Shown here piece by piece: positions 25,496 to 36,489 of a DNA stretch of 39,288 bases (position 1 is its first letter; the number at the start of each line of letters is the position of its first letter). The notes beneath the pieces are model-generated. The model did not search any database, was not told the origin of the DNA, and saw only the letters and a list, made by a program, of their open reading frames with translations. The stretch is taken from positions 1 to 39,288 of the IMG/VR virus record IMGVR_UViG_3300023176_005370, one strand, 5' to 3'. A program made the position numbers and the translations under genes. The stretch is from a virus.

Positions 25496-26427
25496 CTTTT
25501 ATATTCGATTAAGGTCGTTACTGCTTAATCCGCGTATTTCCAAACGTATCCCTTATAAGTCTTCCTCTTCCCTTTGCATACTTTTGTTATACAGGAAGGG
25601 TCCATACCTAGAGCTAGTGAAGCTTCTTTTATCGAATCGTATCTCGTAGATATTTCATCTTTTAAGGCTATTACAGGTTTTCTAGTCTTGGCCGTACGTT
25701 TAGCTATTGTAGAAGCAGATTGTACATGACCTAATTTAGAAAGCCTCATCTTATCTCTAGTCTCCGTAGACACTGGAGGTAGTTTACGCCCCCGCCTACT
25801 TATACTCATATTACGTTTGGTCTCTTCGGTATGATTACCCCAGCTCTTACCTGTACGTCTGCGAGAGACTTCCTCCCTAGCGTACTTATACAAGTGGCTA
25901 CTTTGAGTCCGACCTACGCACATCATATTCCATGCATACGTCAGAGAGTCATTGTCTGGGTGCATTTTAGCTAAGAGCCAATGTGCTAAAAAATGTTCAC
26001 GAGCAGTTAATGCTACTAAGTTTGTCGGAGAATCATCTCCTCCTAAGCACCTAGGCTTTATATGATGTATCTCTACATATCCTTGATACTCAGATAGTCT
26101 TGCATTATCTATCAATTCGTTATATATTCTTTCGTAATTCATACTTACTTCGCTGCTTTACGTTACCGTAAAGAATAGACTATATCTTCACCCGTTCTGG
26201 GTGCCCACCACTTCGAGTCACTTGACTCTACTCCGTCTCCGGATAGTCGTTGAACGTTCTCCATAGCAAATGCCTTAGGAGCTTCGCTGCTGATTGTCCC
26301 GCTATGTCCTTATTTTAAAACCTTTGTACCTTCTTTCGAAAATACCGTGGTTAAGAACACCAAGGATATCCCAGCAATTCAATGGGTTTTCACTTATAGA
26401 TTCCTCTATAAGGCAGCTAATCAATTA
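25496..26427 (-). ncRNA. Group I self-splicing intron in the RNA polymerase gene
   Basis: A 932-nt intron. P1 is visible: exon CAGU plus intron UAA pair with UUAGCUG, with a U-G pair at the 5' splice site. Intron GAUU can pair with exon 2 AAUC (P10), and the last intron base is G. Core elements on the minus strand are P (AATTGCTGGGATATCC, 26379-26364), Q (AATCAGCAGCGAAGC, 26295-26281), R (GTTCAACGACTATCCGG, 26255-26239) and S (AAGATATAGTC, 26188-26178); R and S pair as P7 (GACTAT/ATAGTC). Splicing gives PFFNS-NHPGRLTM, aligning without gaps to bacterial PFLEHNDANRALM. An HNH gene lies after S. Confidence 0.93.
25525..26142 (-). CDS. Intron-encoded HNH homing endonuclease with NUMOD-type modules
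   Basis: A 205-residue protein inside the group I intron, starting shortly after the S element. The HNH core is YVEIHHIKPRCLGGDDSPTN followed by LVALTAREHFLAHWLL. Next come Arg/Lys-rich repeated modules (NMSISRRGRKLPPVS, MRLSKLGHVQSAS) typical of NUMOD DNA-binding segments, and a C-terminal helix-turn-helix-like SIKEASLALGMDPSCITKVC ending KGYVWKYAD. It probably cuts intronless alleles of the polymerase gene, causing intron homing. The start lacks a strong ribosome site, as is common for intron genes. Confidence 0.9.
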   Translation of the reverse strand: MNYERIYNELIDNARLSEYQGYVEIHHIKPRCLGGDDSPTNLVALTAREHFLAHWLLAKMHPDNDSLTYAWNMMCVGRTQSSHLYKYAREEVSRRRTGKSWGNHTEETKRNMSISRRGRKLPPVSTETRDKMRLSKLGHVQSASTIAKRTAKTRKPVIALKDEISTRYDSIKEASLALGMDPSCITKVCKGKRKTYKGYVWKYAD

Positions 26428-27972
26428 ACTGTTGAAGAATGGAACCATGTTGGTGGTTACCGTATACATATCAGATCCGGCTGGAATCCAATATTGTACC
26501 TCGCTCTTATTTGCCTCTCTGAACTTACCCTTATATTGGGTCATTGTGGTCTTCTTGCCGTCTTTCCTCATTCCGTCTGGAAATCCTATTACGGAATTCA
26601 TCATCTCGTTAGATGACAGGTAGACTTCTTTGCCGCTTCTATCCAATACTCGAGCATACATATTACCCTCGCTGTCTCGACGTGCTGTCATTGTGAAACG
26701 CTGATCGATACCGGCCATGGCAGATTCAGGGGTACGGGAAGGATCCAATATACCTAAATGCGATGGGTCGACGTTACGCGCTTCGTCCGGTACGCCCTTC
26801 TCAGAAGCGATACCGCCGTAGCCCGGTCCGATTACAGTAGCCTTACCTACGTTCTCGATAGATTCAATAGGATTGGTTTCACTAGGGGGAGACGCTAGAG
26901 TACTGTTGTTGATAAAGTTTGTATATACCTTATTGAAAGGCTTAGCGCCTAGAACAGAACGGATCTTAGGATCGTTCTTATCCACTTTATCCAGCGAGCG
27001 CTGAATGTTTTTGATCGGGCCTGTTACATTCTCATTGCCTTTAGCAAAGTGAGAGCTGATGAAATCAGGTAGGCCTAGTACGCGTTTGAACTGCAGGCTG
27101 TCTCGGTTATCTTCTGCACGCTCACCTCTCTTGATATCGATGATGTTCTTACAAGAAAGAAGAATCGTCTCGGCAGTGATATGAGAGAAGCTTTTACCTA
27201 GAGTAGTCTGGGTCGTATCGACGTCTAATTTAGAATTCTGAAGGGCCTCTTTAAGGGCTTCTGCTTTATCTTCGATAGATAGAGATTTATCCTGAATACG
27301 CTTATTAACCATCTTGCTATATAAGCTATTGATTACTTTAGTGTCTCGACCCTGGGCGTCCTTCATATTCGGCTCTACTATATCCTTAGGGATGTAGCGC
27401 TCGATAGTTGCACGGTCTAATCCGAATACTTTGGTCAGTAATACGAATAGACTTAGACCGCTGGACTTAGATCCACCTGCACGAATCTTGAATAATAAAG
27501 TCTCAGGCTCTAGGATAATCGATAAGCCAGCTCCGCTTCCAGTGTTGAAAGAGGATTCCAGTTCTCCGTTATCGCGACTGCGAGTATATACTCCAGGCTT
27601 AAGAACAACGAGATTAGCGACATTATAATTGTTTCCTTTATAAACCTGCGTATGCTTACCGGTCAATGCATAAGTATCAGCAAGACTGAAGTTCTTAACT
27701 GTATCGATAAGCTTATTAGTTTTCTTGTCGTACATCTTAACTGTACCGCGAACTGGGTACGTTAGAGACTTACTACGAAGAATAGCATCTTTCTCGTCTT
27801 TATGATCGAAAAACTTCTTATCGGCATGAACATCTTCTACTTCAATGCGGTAGTTGGCGTTCTCTATAGGAAATGTCGAAGAGATACCTTCGATCATCGC
27901 CTTGTCCGTTCTATCGTTTATCTCATGAGGACTTGAAAAGATAGGTATTAAATCACTGGCCTTCTTGGGCAT
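26428..27972 (-). CDS. RNA polymerase beta N-terminal part (exon 1)
   Basis: Exon 1 encodes 515 residues of beta. The region TYPVRGTVKMYDKKTN ... ADTYALTGKHTQVYKG ... LVVLKPGVYTRSRDNGELES corresponds to the beta protrusion, where bacteria have [22 protein letters not shown]. Later come DSLQFKRVLGLPDFISSHFA and the fork-loop region NPIESIENVGKATVIGPGYGG, DEARNVDPSHLGILDPSRTPES (bacterial REVHPTHYGRMCPIETPEG). The frame ends at TAA, the first intron codon, just before the conserved NDANRALMG segment. Spliced to exon 2 it gives a 1519-residue fusion. Overlaps the upstream gene by 20 nt. Confidence 0.9.
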
Positions 27973-31192: not shown

Positions 31193-31387
31193 ATGTTAAA
31201 GAAGATTCTTTTCTGGCTAGCCATCGCGGCTCTAGCCTTTATTATGATTAGTTATGGGTTCGTTGCGTGGGTAATGCCTGTCGTAATGGCTTTCTATATC
31301 TGGATGGCTAAGTGGTCTATGATCACAGCTGCTATATTAATCGTACTTGTTGTACTTTGGATCTTTTGGAAATTGAGGAAACGATGA
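31193..31387 (+). CDS. Small membrane protein, two transmembrane segments
   Basis: The ATG at 31193 follows GAGAG and gives 64 residues. Two hydrophobic stretches are clear, ILFWLAIAALAFIMISYGFV and ITAAILIVLVVLWIFW, with a basic end (KLRKR). Size and topology resemble class II holins and small phage inner-membrane proteins, but no endolysin lies next to it, so a holin role is only possible. It overlaps the next gene by 4 nt. Confidence 0.65.
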   Translation: MLKKILFWLAIAALAFIMISYGFVAWVMPVVMAFYIWMAKWSMITAAILIVLVVLWIFWKLRKR

Positions 31388-31572
31388 AAGATACGTATTT
31401 TGAAGAGGCCAGGGAGGCCTTAGGATTGGCCGAACGACTAGGCCTACAGATCTCTGAAGTGCAATCACTTCAGAGTATCAATAGGAATGTCCGCGATGCC
31501 AATGAAGATATGAAGCCCTATTGGAAATCCAAAGGGCGTCAGATGATCGAGAGGATTAAAGCGAGAGCGTAA
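31384..31572 (+). CDS. Small helical protein
   Basis: The ATG at 31384 lies in an ATGA overlap and is preceded by TTGAGGAAAC, giving 62 residues. The product is charged and helical (YFEEAREALGLAERLG) with a basic C-terminus (MIERIKARA). A perfect 10-bp inverted repeat lies inside the coding sequence. Its end overlaps the convergent 310-residue gene by 17 nt. Function unknown. Confidence 0.6.
   Translation: MKDTYFEEAREALGLAERLGLQISEVQSLQSINRNVRDANEDMKPYWKSKGRQMIERIKARA
31452..31475 (+). repeat. Perfect 10-bp inverted repeat inside coding sequence
   Basis: CTCTGAAGTG-CAAT-CACTTCAGAG is a perfect stem with a 4-nt loop, about 100 nt before the convergent gene end. No T-run follows. It could slow or pause transcription or fold in the mRNA. 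Confidence 0.8.
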
Positions 31573-32488
31573 GCTGTCGTACGCGTACTTCTACGTCAGA
31601 GCTGATCTGTGCAGGAGTACCGTTCTTATCAGTTACTGTGATAGTGTTCGCGCCAGGACTGTATAGCCAGTAGAACTGGTTAACACCCTGTAGGAATACT
31701 TCACATGCATCGATCTGATTAACATTGATGTCAGAGCCGGCTAGGGGGATGACTAGATCACGAGGAGTACTACCCGTTAGCTCTACTACGTGATGTACGT
31801 AGTCCGCCTTAGCACTGGCTAGTGGGTTAGAGGTCTGCTCGAATGTCTTCATATATCGAAGAGTGATCATATCCTCTGATAAGGCTACAGAACGTTCCGG
31901 TACTACGATATCCATTAAGTGGATGGCTGAAGTACTAGGAGGAGACATGATGTAGCCTGCAGTAGCATCGTAATCAGGAGTGACCTGAGTGATGATATCT
32001 ACTTCTCGGATCTCCGATTCACCGGAAGGAACTCGAGAACTAGTGGTTGCATCAGTCGGGATTGCCCAGATCTCTGTACGACGAACGTAACCGTCCGTAC
32101 CTGGAGATACCGATACGTTGACACGGCGGGCTTCATCGTGCACGCCGATATATGGGACTTGTACATCTACAGAGCCGCTTACGGTAGTGAACCATGTCCC
32201 GAAGCCGTAGCCGATGTCGATATCCAGGCCGCCCGGTAGTTTATATTCACCCACGTATCCACCGCAGGTGGTGCGGGCAGGGTCGCCTACGCCACATAAG
32301 GCTAGGGCGGTAGAAGCAGCTGCCATCTCAGATCGGGCAGAACGTCCAGCAGAGTCATCTGCATTTCGCGCCAACAGGTTAATGTTATTCGCCAGGTTGG
32401 TCAGAGGTCGATTATCAACCTCGAAGTAATAAGGGTCAGAAGGAGTGTAGAACTGTACTACCTCTAACTGTTCAGTAATATTAGGCAT
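31556..32488 (-). CDS. Putative virion structural protein (tail/fibre-associated), isolated
   Basis: A 310-residue protein. The N-terminal 45 residues (QFYTPSDPYYFEVDNRPLTN, then a helix) resemble the start of phage baseplate or fibre-attachment proteins; the rest is beta-rich and Gly/Ser/Thr-rich (GYGFGTWFTTVSGSVDVQV), without an enzyme motif. GGAGG lies five bases before the ATG. It is the only minus-strand gene between 30 and 36 kb, surrounded by early-type genes, so it must have its own promoter; CGTTATAAT at 32542-32534 is a weak candidate. Confidence 0.6.
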   Translation of the reverse strand: MPNITEQLEVVQFYTPSDPYYFEVDNRPLTNLANNINLLARNADDSAGRSARSEMAAASTALALCGVGDPARTTCGGYVGEYKLPGGLDIDIGYGFGTWFTTVSGSVDVQVPYIGVHDEARRVNVSVSPGTDGYVRRTEIWAIPTDATTSSRVPSGESEIREVDIITQVTPDYDATAGYIMSPPSTSAIHLMDIVVPERSVALSEDMITLRYMKTFEQTSNPLASAKADYVHHVVELTGSTPRDLVIPLAGSDINVNQIDACEVFLQGVNQFYWLYSPGANTITVTDKNGTPAQISSDVEVRVRQLTLSL

Positions 32489-34399: not shown

Positions 34400-34415
34400 T
34401 GTTATAAGTAATATG
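34400..34415 (+). promoter_or_regulatory. Early-type extended -10 promoter
   Basis: TGTTATAAGTAATATG lies 14 nt after the helicase stop and about 40 nt upstream of the ATG at 34451. Confidence 0.7.
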
Positions 34416-34450
34416 TGAAGGATATTTTTCTTCACCCCGACGAGGATAGA

Positions 34451-34870
34451 ATGGATTTAACGTACGCGCAATTCAAACGTTATGCAGAAGAATTAAACAA
34501 GGCGATAGGAGACGATATCGATTTAGAGAAGATCGACTTAGTAATCGTTAAGACCCTGGTAGCATCTGATACGGTAGATCAGATGTATGAGATCAGGGCA
34601 ATGTCGGATCTAGGAGTATTACTTTCGTTCGTGCAAAGTAACCTGGATGATTTCGGAGAAGAGATCGATTTCTGGGAAGAGTATCTGAAGACAGGCGAGC
34701 GTGTGAGCAACGCCGTCGAGCAGCAGATGCCTCCAGAGATATTAGAAGAGATGGAGAATAATCCACTAGTTAAGTTAACAAAGAAATTGGTAGATAATCC
34801 TGAGTTACTTCTGGATAAGAAGACTCTCGAAGAACACGCAGAAATAATAACGAATATAATGGGTATGTAA
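34451..34870 (+). CDS. Small acidic early-type protein, array member 1
   Basis: The ATG at 34451 follows GAGGATA and makes the start MDLTYAQFKRYAEELNK resemble the start of array member 3 (MNYAQLKNMANTL). An upstream in-frame GTG (34415) lies on the promoter edge and is less likely. The product is 139 residues and acidic. Around residue 75, EEIDFWEEYL matches a K/E-D-F-W motif in the other members (35081, 35777, 36196). It has its own promoter. Function unknown; an early anti-host protein is possible. Confidence 0.6.
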   Translation: MDLTYAQFKRYAEELNKAIGDDIDLEKIDLVIVKTLVASDTVDQMYEIRAMSDLGVLLSFVQSNLDDFGEEIDFWEEYLKTGERVSNAVEQQMPPEILEEMENNPLVKLTKKLVDNPELLLDKKTLEEHAEIITNIMGM

Positions 34871-34994
34871 GTGTCTACATATAACTGGTCTGGATTTCCT
34901 AACGGCGGCGGTAAGCCGGGGAAATAATAAAAATAGTTAATCACATGGACGTAGACGCCAATCGCTAGAAGCCGCACAATGCGGCACACAGCAG

Positions 34995-35014
34995 GAGAGC
35001 TTAGGCTCTCTTTT
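34995..35014 (+). terminator. Rho-independent terminator
   Basis: GAGAGC-TTAG-GCTCTC followed by TTTT. It lies 125 nt after the array member 1 stop; the intervening 34871-34994 holds no clear gene but has other hairpins. Confidence 0.75.
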
Positions 35015-35033
35015 ACATAGCGCAGACCAGTTA

Positions 35034-35048
35034 TGTTATAAGTATAGT
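35034..35048 (+). promoter_or_regulatory. Early-type promoter, consensus copy
   Basis: TGTTATAAGTATAGT, identical to 21033 and 35722, 33 nt upstream of the ATG at 35081 and just after a terminator. Confidence 0.75.
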
Positions 35049-35080
35049 AAGGATCTCAACATAAGCCAAAGGAAACGGAA

Positions 35081-35491
35081 ATGATTGGATACTTTGTTTT
35101 TAAGGACTATGCTAAAGCTTACCGAGAGGAACTAATGGAAGCTAAGCAGAAATACGAGGAGAAGAAGGACGATGCAGGTCCGCTGGCATTATTGTCCAGC
35201 TCTCAGGAGTTCATGATACTGGGGAGTATGAACGACTTCTGTGACTTTGCAAAAGAGAATGAAGGTTTCGTAAGGAATGATAAGGATTTCTGGACCGAAA
35301 TACTTAGGACGTATGAAGCTACATCTAATGATATAGCGAATTACTTAGAAGACTGCAGACCAGGCTCTCAAATGGCTAAAGGTCTACGACATGATCTGAA
35401 CCTTAGTAAGGTACGATATGTCCTGAGTGACTTCGATTCTCTGTTCGATAAGAATAAACTTACATCCCTAGTCACATTGAATAACCTATAA
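35081..35491 (+). CDS. Small early-type protein, array member 2
   Basis: A 136-residue charged, helical protein preceded by AAAGGAAAC. It contains RNDKDFWTEILRTYE (about residues 66-80), matching the D-F-W motif of the neighbouring array proteins, and a coiled-coil-like start (YREELMEAKQKYEEKKDD). It has its own consensus promoter and is followed by the ncRNA promoter. Function unknown. Confidence 0.6.
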   Translation: MIGYFVFKDYAKAYREELMEAKQKYEEKKDDAGPLALLSSSQEFMILGSMNDFCDFAKENEGFVRNDKDFWTEILRTYEATSNDIANYLEDCRPGSQMAKGLRHDLNLSKVRYVLSDFDSLFDKNKLTSLVTLNNL

Positions 35492-35497
35492 GTATAT

Positions 35498-35506
35498 TGT
35501 TATAAG
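35498..35506 (+). promoter_or_regulatory. Early-type promoter of ncRNA
   Basis: TGTTATAAG, an extended -10, starts 7 nt after the array member 2 stop. A start about 7 nt beyond would be near 35513, at the base of the first hairpin of the ncRNA. Confidence 0.7.
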
Positions 35507-35512
35507 AAATAT

Positions 35513-35702
35513 GTGGTACATTAGCCACATCGGACTGGGGCTTGTAGTGTTTGATCTTAACCCCTCGCAAGATCATTCGATCCAGGTTAGGCAGCCTGAA
35601 TCGTCTCCTCACAGCAAGCGCCTCTGACATGAGTTATGGTAGTAGCTCTGTCAGTATTACTACCAATCGGTAGGCCCTCTTAATGTGGCCTGCCGATTTT
35701 TT
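35513..35702 (+). ncRNA. Structured phage ncRNA, about 190 nt
   Basis: No plausible protein gene lies between promoter 35498 and the terminator at 35665. The region folds into a string of stems: ATGTGG/CCACAT (35511-35530), TGATCTT/AAGATCA (35552-35575), CGAT-c-CAGG/CCTG-a-ATCG (35578-35603) and TGGTAGTA/TACTACCA (35637-35665), then a 12-bp terminator. CTGACA (35623-35628) can pair with TGTCAG (35649-35654) in the loop of the fourth stem, giving a pseudoknot or a switch. No tRNA or known RNA family recognised. Exact 5' end is estimated. Confidence 0.75.
35665..35702 (+). terminator. Strong terminator of the ncRNA
   Basis: AATCGGTAGGCC pairs fully with GGCCTGCCGATT (12 bp, one G-T) around a 10-nt loop, followed by a run of six T. 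Confidence 0.9.
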
Positions 35703-35721
35703 ACATACGGTACTCTCTATA

Positions 35722-35736
35722 TGTTATAAGTATAGT
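35722..35736 (+). promoter_or_regulatory. Early-type promoter, consensus copy
   Basis: TGTTATAAGTATAGT, identical to 21033 and 35034, 41 nt upstream of the ATG at 35777. A GCGT-AAAT-ACGC hairpin lies at the expected 5' end of the transcript. Confidence 0.75.
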
Positions 35737-35776
35737 AAGCGTAAATACGCTGTGAGTGAACCTCAGAGGAGGTAAC

Positions 35777-36148
35777 ATGAATTACGCTCAACTTAAAAAT
35801 ATGGCCAATACTCTTAGAGTACTTAGGCAGAGGAATGTAAGCGGGGACGGAAATTTCATCGGACTGGAGTTATTCGAAAGGATGATGGAGAAGAAGCTTG
35901 AGGGGTGTGATCCTCTCCTGCTGAATGTTACATACTTAGGCGGTATAAGAAACATAGCTATGCATTATAATAAAGAGGTGCATAAGGATAGAGAGTTCTG
36001 GACAACATATATAACAGAGGACTTGATTTCGGTGTGCAAAGCTATGTATATAGACTATCCGAAAATAGAAGGTTATTACCTTAGAAGTATTGAGGAGATA
36101 CGATCTGATTTCGGTGCGTTATTCCGACTTTCGAAAGTCAATATCTAG
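35777..36148 (+). CDS. Small early-type protein, array member 3
   Basis: The ATG at 35777 has an excellent AGAGGAGGT site; the in-frame GTG at 35756 lacks one. The product is 123 residues. The N-terminus (MNYAQLKNMANTLRVL) resembles array member 1, and HKDREFWTTYITEDL (about residues 74-88) matches the shared D/E-F-W motif. It has its own consensus promoter. Function unknown. Confidence 0.65.
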   Translation: MNYAQLKNMANTLRVLRQRNVSGDGNFIGLELFERMMEKKLEGCDPLLLNVTYLGGIRNIAMHYNKEVHKDREFWTTYITEDLISVCKAMYIDYPKIEGYYLRSIEEIRSDFGALFRLSKVNI

Positions 36149-36156
36149 TTGAATTT

Positions 36157-36172
36157 CGTTATAAGTCTAATG
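36157..36172 (+). promoter_or_regulatory. Early-type promoter variant
   Basis: CGTTATAAGTCTAATG starts 9 nt after the array member 3 stop and lies about 30 nt upstream of 36196. The TG of the extended -10 is replaced by CG, so it may be weaker. Confidence 0.6.
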
Positions 36173-36195
36173 TAAGGAAACTAAGGAGAATACAT

Positions 36196-36489
36196 ATGAG
36201 TACTTACCGCAAGTTAAAGCAGTTGTATTGTCGCCTGATTAACATCAACCCTAAAGGTGATGTGGTTCAGCAAGCTAAGGATGTAGTTCAAGATCTTGGC
36301 GATGAGAAGCTAGGATACTATCTAACTCTCGAAGGTATGGAGTCTACGGATAAAGTCTTTAAGGACAATCCTGTAGAGTACTCTCAAGATAAAGATCTTT
36401 GGGACGAAGTTCGTAGTTCTAAGGTGATTGAGATTCTAGCAAATGCAAAGCCGGAAGTAGACAGCGTCCCGAACACTGTCGCGGCATAA
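36196..36489 (+). CDS. Small early-type protein, array member 4
   Basis: A 97-residue acidic protein with AAGGAG before its ATG. MSTYRKLKQLYCRL resembles the opening of members 1 and 3, and YSQDKDLWDEVRSS (about residues 62-75) is a variant of the shared D-F-W motif. It is the last of the array, converging on the sigma gene across a terminator. Function unknown. Confidence 0.6.
   Translation: MSTYRKLKQLYCRLININPKGDVVQQAKDVVQDLGDEKLGYYLTLEGMESTDKVFKDNPVEYSQDKDLWDEVRSSKVIEILANAKPEVDSVPNTVAA

Follow-up and report, generated by a model that had tools for sequence, protein, structure and literature searches.

The analysed sequence, an IMG/VR contig of 39,288 bases (hereafter the window), encodes a tail sheath and other structural proteins, mostly on the minus strand, together with a multisubunit RNA polymerase with split beta/beta' subunits, a sigma factor, a SNF2-type helicase and a single-stranded DNA-binding protein resembling T7 gp2.5. 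A group I intron (26156-26437, minus strand; Rfam score of 107.7 bits) with an HNH-like ORF (25525-26142, minus strand) interrupts an RNA polymerase gene. Based on the polymerase, the nearest named phages are Vibrio phages D69, D148 and D181 (68% identity) and Salmonella phage Arash (59% identity), and the closest IMG/VR record is the 172-kb G001 (72% identity). The near-complete relatives measure 170-190 kb, so the window represents approximately one fifth of a genome. The phage is a myovirus and encodes its own multisubunit polymerase. The Arash virion contains the polymerase beta, beta' and sigma subunits (PMC10585845), which suggests that genes of the kind described here could be read by either the host or the phage polymerase. 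An alignment of the helicase against bacterial genomes did not recover phages of this group, and therefore gave no clue to the host.

The interval between the helicase and sigma factor genes contains four weakly similar small genes (starting at 34451, 35081, 35777, and 36196), each with its own promoter, and the predicted RNA gene is located between the second and the third (Table 1). The array spans positions 34415-36489, with the ATG at 34451 a more likely start for the first gene than the GTG at 34415, and D69 has a single copy (VPHD69_0249). A profile of the four array proteins and the D69/D181 copy links all five, although it was built from the same five sequences, and independent pairwise support for their kinship is weak (E = 0.012 for the D181 copy against the 34451 gene). 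The AlphaFold model of the 35777 protein is all-helical (pLDDT of 74); its best match among the PDB chains compared had a Z score of 4.9 (an Hsp90 complex), and there was no viral match below an E-value of 3. This protein contains the sequence RNIAMH, which resembles a HEPN motif, and has a sub-threshold match to DUF3644 (E = 0.079). A HEPN identity was not supported, as RNIAMH is missing in the three paralogs and there is no clear fold match.

We scored candidate promoters using a matrix trained on 21 sites from D69 and G001 only, and none from the window. The predicted promoter of the RNA gene, with a -10 region that reads TG-T-TATAAG followed by AAATATG, scored 27.9 bits and ranked third over all window positions on both strands. 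This is inside the range of the training sites (23-40 bits), while five shuffled windows peaked at 5-15.2 bits. The extended -10 promoter proposed in the first-pass annotation is supported by this independent matrix. The 11 best matches in the window are all on the plus strand. Across 27 sites the consensus is tT.AAta-N-TNTGTTATAAGTAATATGTA. The motif GTTATAAG occurs seven times in the window (1.8 expected), always on the plus strand and before non-structural genes, and the D69 and G001 sites repeat it with TTNAATA upstream and AATATGTA downstream. The 18-base spacing of TTGAAT at the RNA gene is identical to that in the relatives, and this -35-like element overlaps the final codons of the preceding gene (stop codon at 35489-35491). 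Within the window this promoter type is found on the plus strand only and always precedes non-structural genes; describing the surroundings of the RNA gene as early is reasonable from the promoter type.

Table 1. Predicted features of the RNA gene and its immediate surroundings (window coordinates).
Feature	Position	Strand	Basis and details
Promoter	35477-35506	+	-35-like TTGAAT (35477-35482), 18-base spacer, extended -10 TGTTATAAG (35498-35506)
Predicted non-coding RNA, about 190 nt	35511-35703	+	Fold statistics, non-coding codon scores
P1, 5' terminal hairpin (AUGUGGU/GCCACAU)	35511-35517/35524-35530	+	Pair probabilities
Three-way junction (P2, P3 and P4)	35537-35622	+	Pair probabilities mostly >0.9
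P2	35537-35549/35610-35622	+	Pair probabilities
P3	35552-35558/35569-35575	+	Pair probabilities; 10-nt loop AACCCCUCGC (35559-35568)
P4	35578-35588/35593-35603	+	Pair probabilities
Unpaired UCUCCU in junction	35604-35609	+	Anti-Shine-Dalgarno-like
P5 hairpin	35624-35637/35642-35654	+	Pair probabilities 0.91-0.96, z = -4.9
Alternative pseudoknot helix (UGGUAGUA/UACUACCA)	35637-35644/35658-35665	+	Exact 8-nt inverted repeat
Intrinsic terminator	35665-35677/35685-35698, then T6 at 35697-35702	+	Stem probabilities mostly >0.95
Promoter of the next gene	35722-35730	+	Motif and matrix; gene starts at 35777

The minimum free energy of positions 35511-35701 is -74.6 kcal/mol (z = -5.4). The z score falls to -3.4 without the terminator and to -2.7 for the core alone (35531-35665); the terminator and small hairpins supply much of the folding energy, and without the terminator the energy is only moderately unusual. 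A coarse scan across the window found a few other stretches with folding scores as low. The strongest folding in that scan (z of approximately -5.4 to -6.5) lies at 31400-31600 on the plus strand, where it overlaps a small ORF (31384-31572) and the end of a converging gene. How well the fold is defined is more telling than its energy. The mean positional entropy is 0.25, compared to 0.99 (sd 0.33) in shuffled sequences, and the base-pair distance is 9.5 compared to 43.8. For the core alone the corresponding values are 0.21 compared to 0.90 and 5.4 compared to 28.3, and none of 200 shuffles matched the RNA or its core in either measure. The first-pass annotation had described four stable stems and a very strong terminator; the stable structure and the terminator stand, and the number of helices is six (P1, three in the junction, P5, and the terminator). 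Segments expected to be unpaired in the nested fold include the P3 loop AACCCCUCGC, the junction UCUCCU, and UAUUACUACC.

P1 is probably an instance of a habit of this phage group, as many predicted transcripts in D69, G001 and the window start with a small hairpin (mean of -6.3 kcal/mol, a modest excess over the -4.4 kcal/mol of downstream pieces). Predicted transcripts from the group promoter often seem to open with such a hairpin at a near-constant distance (e.g., UGGAGAUACGUCUCC), as at the window sites 34400, 35498 and 35722 and at sites in D69 and G001, and these hairpins perhaps protect 5' ends.

CTGACA (35624-35629) and TGTCAG (35649-35654) had been suggested to form a pseudoknot. Instead, they pair with each other at the base of the ordinary hairpin P5 with probabilities of 0.91-0.95. 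A different H-type pseudoknot, abutting the terminator stem, is possible in the model. It requires that the six basal pairs of P5 are kept and that upper P5 is replaced by the UGGUAGUA/UACUACCA helix. Its predicted stacking energy of -24.1 kcal/mol was equalled in 4.75% of shuffles, and it competes with a P5 hairpin of -15.5 kcal/mol.

We did not identify a homolog of the RNA in the collections searched. It matched no Rfam family, either at the gathering level or up to an E-value of 10; a match to the P31 family scored 18.4 bits against a cut-off of 40 and was on the wrong strand of the terminator. BLASTN searches against phages, plasmids and E. coli returned only one 22-base chance match (E = 8). 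An exact 16-mer had 14 matches in IMG/VR, many of them mutually related, which we attribute to chance because none extends into the rest of the RNA. Searches with a stem pattern, a 23-mer and genome patterns did not match the RNA, and nor did a covariance model in 22 whole relative records, although a model built from one sequence detects near relatives only and distant ones could escape it. No relatives were found using the flanking proteins as bait. The RNA is absent from D69, D181, Arash and G001, which have the same helicase and sigma factor genes: in D69, D181 and G001 the interval between these genes contains protein genes only, and in Arash the matching interval shows just the start of a helicase gene. 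This suggests that the RNA is lineage-specific, as far as these collections show. The earlier judgement that it is not a tRNA agrees with the lack of a match in Rfam or in ARAGORN at default settings or -ps80. There was likewise no tmRNA match in Rfam or in ARAGORN at default settings or -ps70, and a tRNA-like reading yielded only low-scoring ARAGORN matches at a 60% threshold. The length is near that of 6S RNA (Rfam RF00013; 180-190 nt), a resemblance raised in the first-pass annotation. However, the Rfam search gave no 6S match at E-values up to 10, and the fold is a three-way junction with further hairpins rather than a long rod with a central bubble.

Two alternatives concern whether this is a stand-alone RNA gene at all. 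The stretch could be a small protein gene or its remnant, for example the 38-codon frame that begins at an ATG close to the predicted transcription start, which we estimate at 35511-35513. However, that ATG (35511) belongs to the promoter consensus, no start is preceded by a Shine-Dalgarno sequence discernible by eye, and frames of this length often arise by chance. The codon scores of the 38-, 40-, 52- and 14-codon ORFs, the 52-codon ORF being on the minus strand, are -0.11, -0.16, -0.06 and -0.23, respectively. All are below the 5th percentile of in-frame pieces of the phage's genes (-0.01; median 0.33), which upholds the earlier claim that approximately 190 nt lack a credible protein gene and makes a coding role highly improbable. 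Only marginally less improbable is that the RNA acts in cis on the 35777 gene, as a leader or attenuator. The RNA precedes that gene on its strand and has a terminator at its end, and CUACC could also pair with GGUAG in the terminator arm, but the 35777 gene has its own promoter at 35722, past the terminator, which argues against a simple leader. The promoter, non-coding scores and fold together give good support to a structured RNA gene that stands alone among non-structural genes, as the first-pass annotation had it. Its further suggestion that the RNA may act on host transcription, translation or defence is speculative. The gene model largely holds for a predicted transcript, and the locus very probably is a stand-alone non-coding RNA gene with the group promoter, its own intrinsic terminator, and a stably folded RNA of approximately 190 nt. 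A scan for promoter-to-terminator units (up to 330 nt with no 60-codon ORF) in the window, two relatives and approximately 37 further loci identified only three including this one, in a search that was not exhaustive and missed a tRNA-like unit in D69. On reading their sequences, the other two have plausible mini-ORFs with Shine-Dalgarno sequences.

Our best reading is that the RNA is a lineage-specific, trans-acting phage small RNA, to which we give a probability of roughly 0.4. The RNA would be transcribed from the promoter type of the phage's non-structural genes and end at its own terminator. Its exposed CU-rich segments, the P3 loop and the junction UCUCCU, may then pair with ribosome-binding sites in phage or host mRNAs, and such pairing might conceivably lower their translation. 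Two or more exposed anti-Shine-Dalgarno-like CU-rich segments occurred in 3% of shuffles. A strong stem followed by a U-rich 3' end, as in this RNA, is also a feature of Hfq-binding small RNAs. Cofolding of the RNA with the 41 translation starts of the window gave a best gain of -9.0 kcal/mol, and the predicted targets were no better than chance: a gain at least as large came from 72.5% of the sets of shuffled starts and from 97.5% of the shuffled RNAs. If anything, the modelled RNA appears closed against window mRNAs; this comparison covered the window alone, approximately one fifth of a 170-190 kb genome. The RNA is complementary at two colinear places to the leader of the gene at 834, over 10 nt at the Shine-Dalgarno sequence (818-827 with 35604-35613) and over 8 nt upstream (800-807 with 35656-35663). 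This leader was rejected as a target because its cofolding energy ranks only fifth of the 41 and is not above chance. Antisense pairing stays our preferred mechanism, since known phage small RNAs commonly act in this way (PMC12197685) and most of the potential phage and host targets lie outside the window.

Shape-based protein binding ranks close behind antisense pairing, and we regard it as somewhat unlikely. Here the junction and P5 (or the pseudoknot) would bind, occupy or scaffold a protein, with a host nuclease, a defence protein, RNA polymerase or a neighbouring phage protein as candidate partners. The very low structural entropy favours this, as does the interaction with window mRNAs, which is weaker than for nearly all shuffled RNAs and fits a closed structure rather than antisense pairing. 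The surrounding array, with its four related small proteins of no clear known fold, is also consistent with this. However, nothing points to a protein partner, the pseudoknot is barely above chance, and the array proteins are tied to the RNA by position only, with D69 having one array gene and no RNA. The fuller proposal of a new class of three-way-junction phage RNA, expressed early from the phage's own promoter class, acting through its shape on a protein of the host or the phage, and gained by one Arash/D69-like branch, is unlikely. Less likely still is that a spurious or weak promoter and a terminator simply separate transcription units and that the RNA has no function. Such a spacer or insulator would suit an RNA that is lineage-specific, lost from, or never acquired by, relatives that share its neighbours, and whose folding energy comes largely from the terminator and small hairpins. 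Against it, the core without the terminator and P1 is better defined than 200 of 200 shuffles, the promoter ranks near the top for the window, and neighbouring genes are separated without a comparable insert.

The small RNA reading has parallels in VpdS of phage VP882 and PreS of phage lambda, phage small RNAs that work with Hfq by such pairing and are likewise small, intergenic, terminator-ended and located among non-structural genes (PMC12197685). Unlike these, the RNA described here is a prediction from sequence; we found no sequence relation to either, and the phage has no known kinship with theirs. Compared to a typical Hfq-dependent small RNA it is larger and more tightly folded. The antitoxin RNAs of type III toxin-antitoxin systems (ToxI-like) also combine a small RNA, a possible pseudoknot and a terminator before a small gene. 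In contrast, a search for tandem repeats in this RNA found no direct repeats, and the 35777 gene has its own promoter and a product with no match to a known family, so the type III reading was rejected. The AbiF-associated RNA, which occurs with a HEPN protein (PMC12373285), is similarly a structured RNA adjoining a small gene. An AbiF-like system is not supported, as the RNA described here has its own promoter, the HEPN-like motif is missing in the paralogs, and the model of the 35777 protein resembles no known fold clearly.

Annotations of lytic phages seldom include structured RNAs, since these often have neither homologs nor a reading frame. The promoter class of this phage group provides an independent handle for locating such an RNA gene in raw sequence. 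If the RNA is made, it would be a compact candidate for controlling gene expression or taking over the host in phages equipped with a multisubunit RNA polymerase of their own. For now, this orphan RNA is an interesting candidate rather than a discovery.

Two further promoter-to-terminator units were observed in relatives. Directly 3' of the helicase gene in a distant relative (locus L054, 2400-2235, minus strand) there is a 166-nt unit with no large ORF (z = -3.9) and no Rfam match, although this could alternatively be a mini-gene of 23 codons that has a Shine-Dalgarno sequence. In D69 (record positions 148048-147905, corresponding to 48048 to about 47905 of locus L019, minus strand) a group-type promoter and an intrinsic terminator enclose an unannotated tRNA-like RNA (approximately 148012-147935), located between two RNA polymerase genes on the opposite strand. 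This RNA has cloverleaf arms, including the T-arm TTTGG-TTCGATT-CCAAA, and an odd anticodon loop, and was detected by ARAGORN at -ps80 only.
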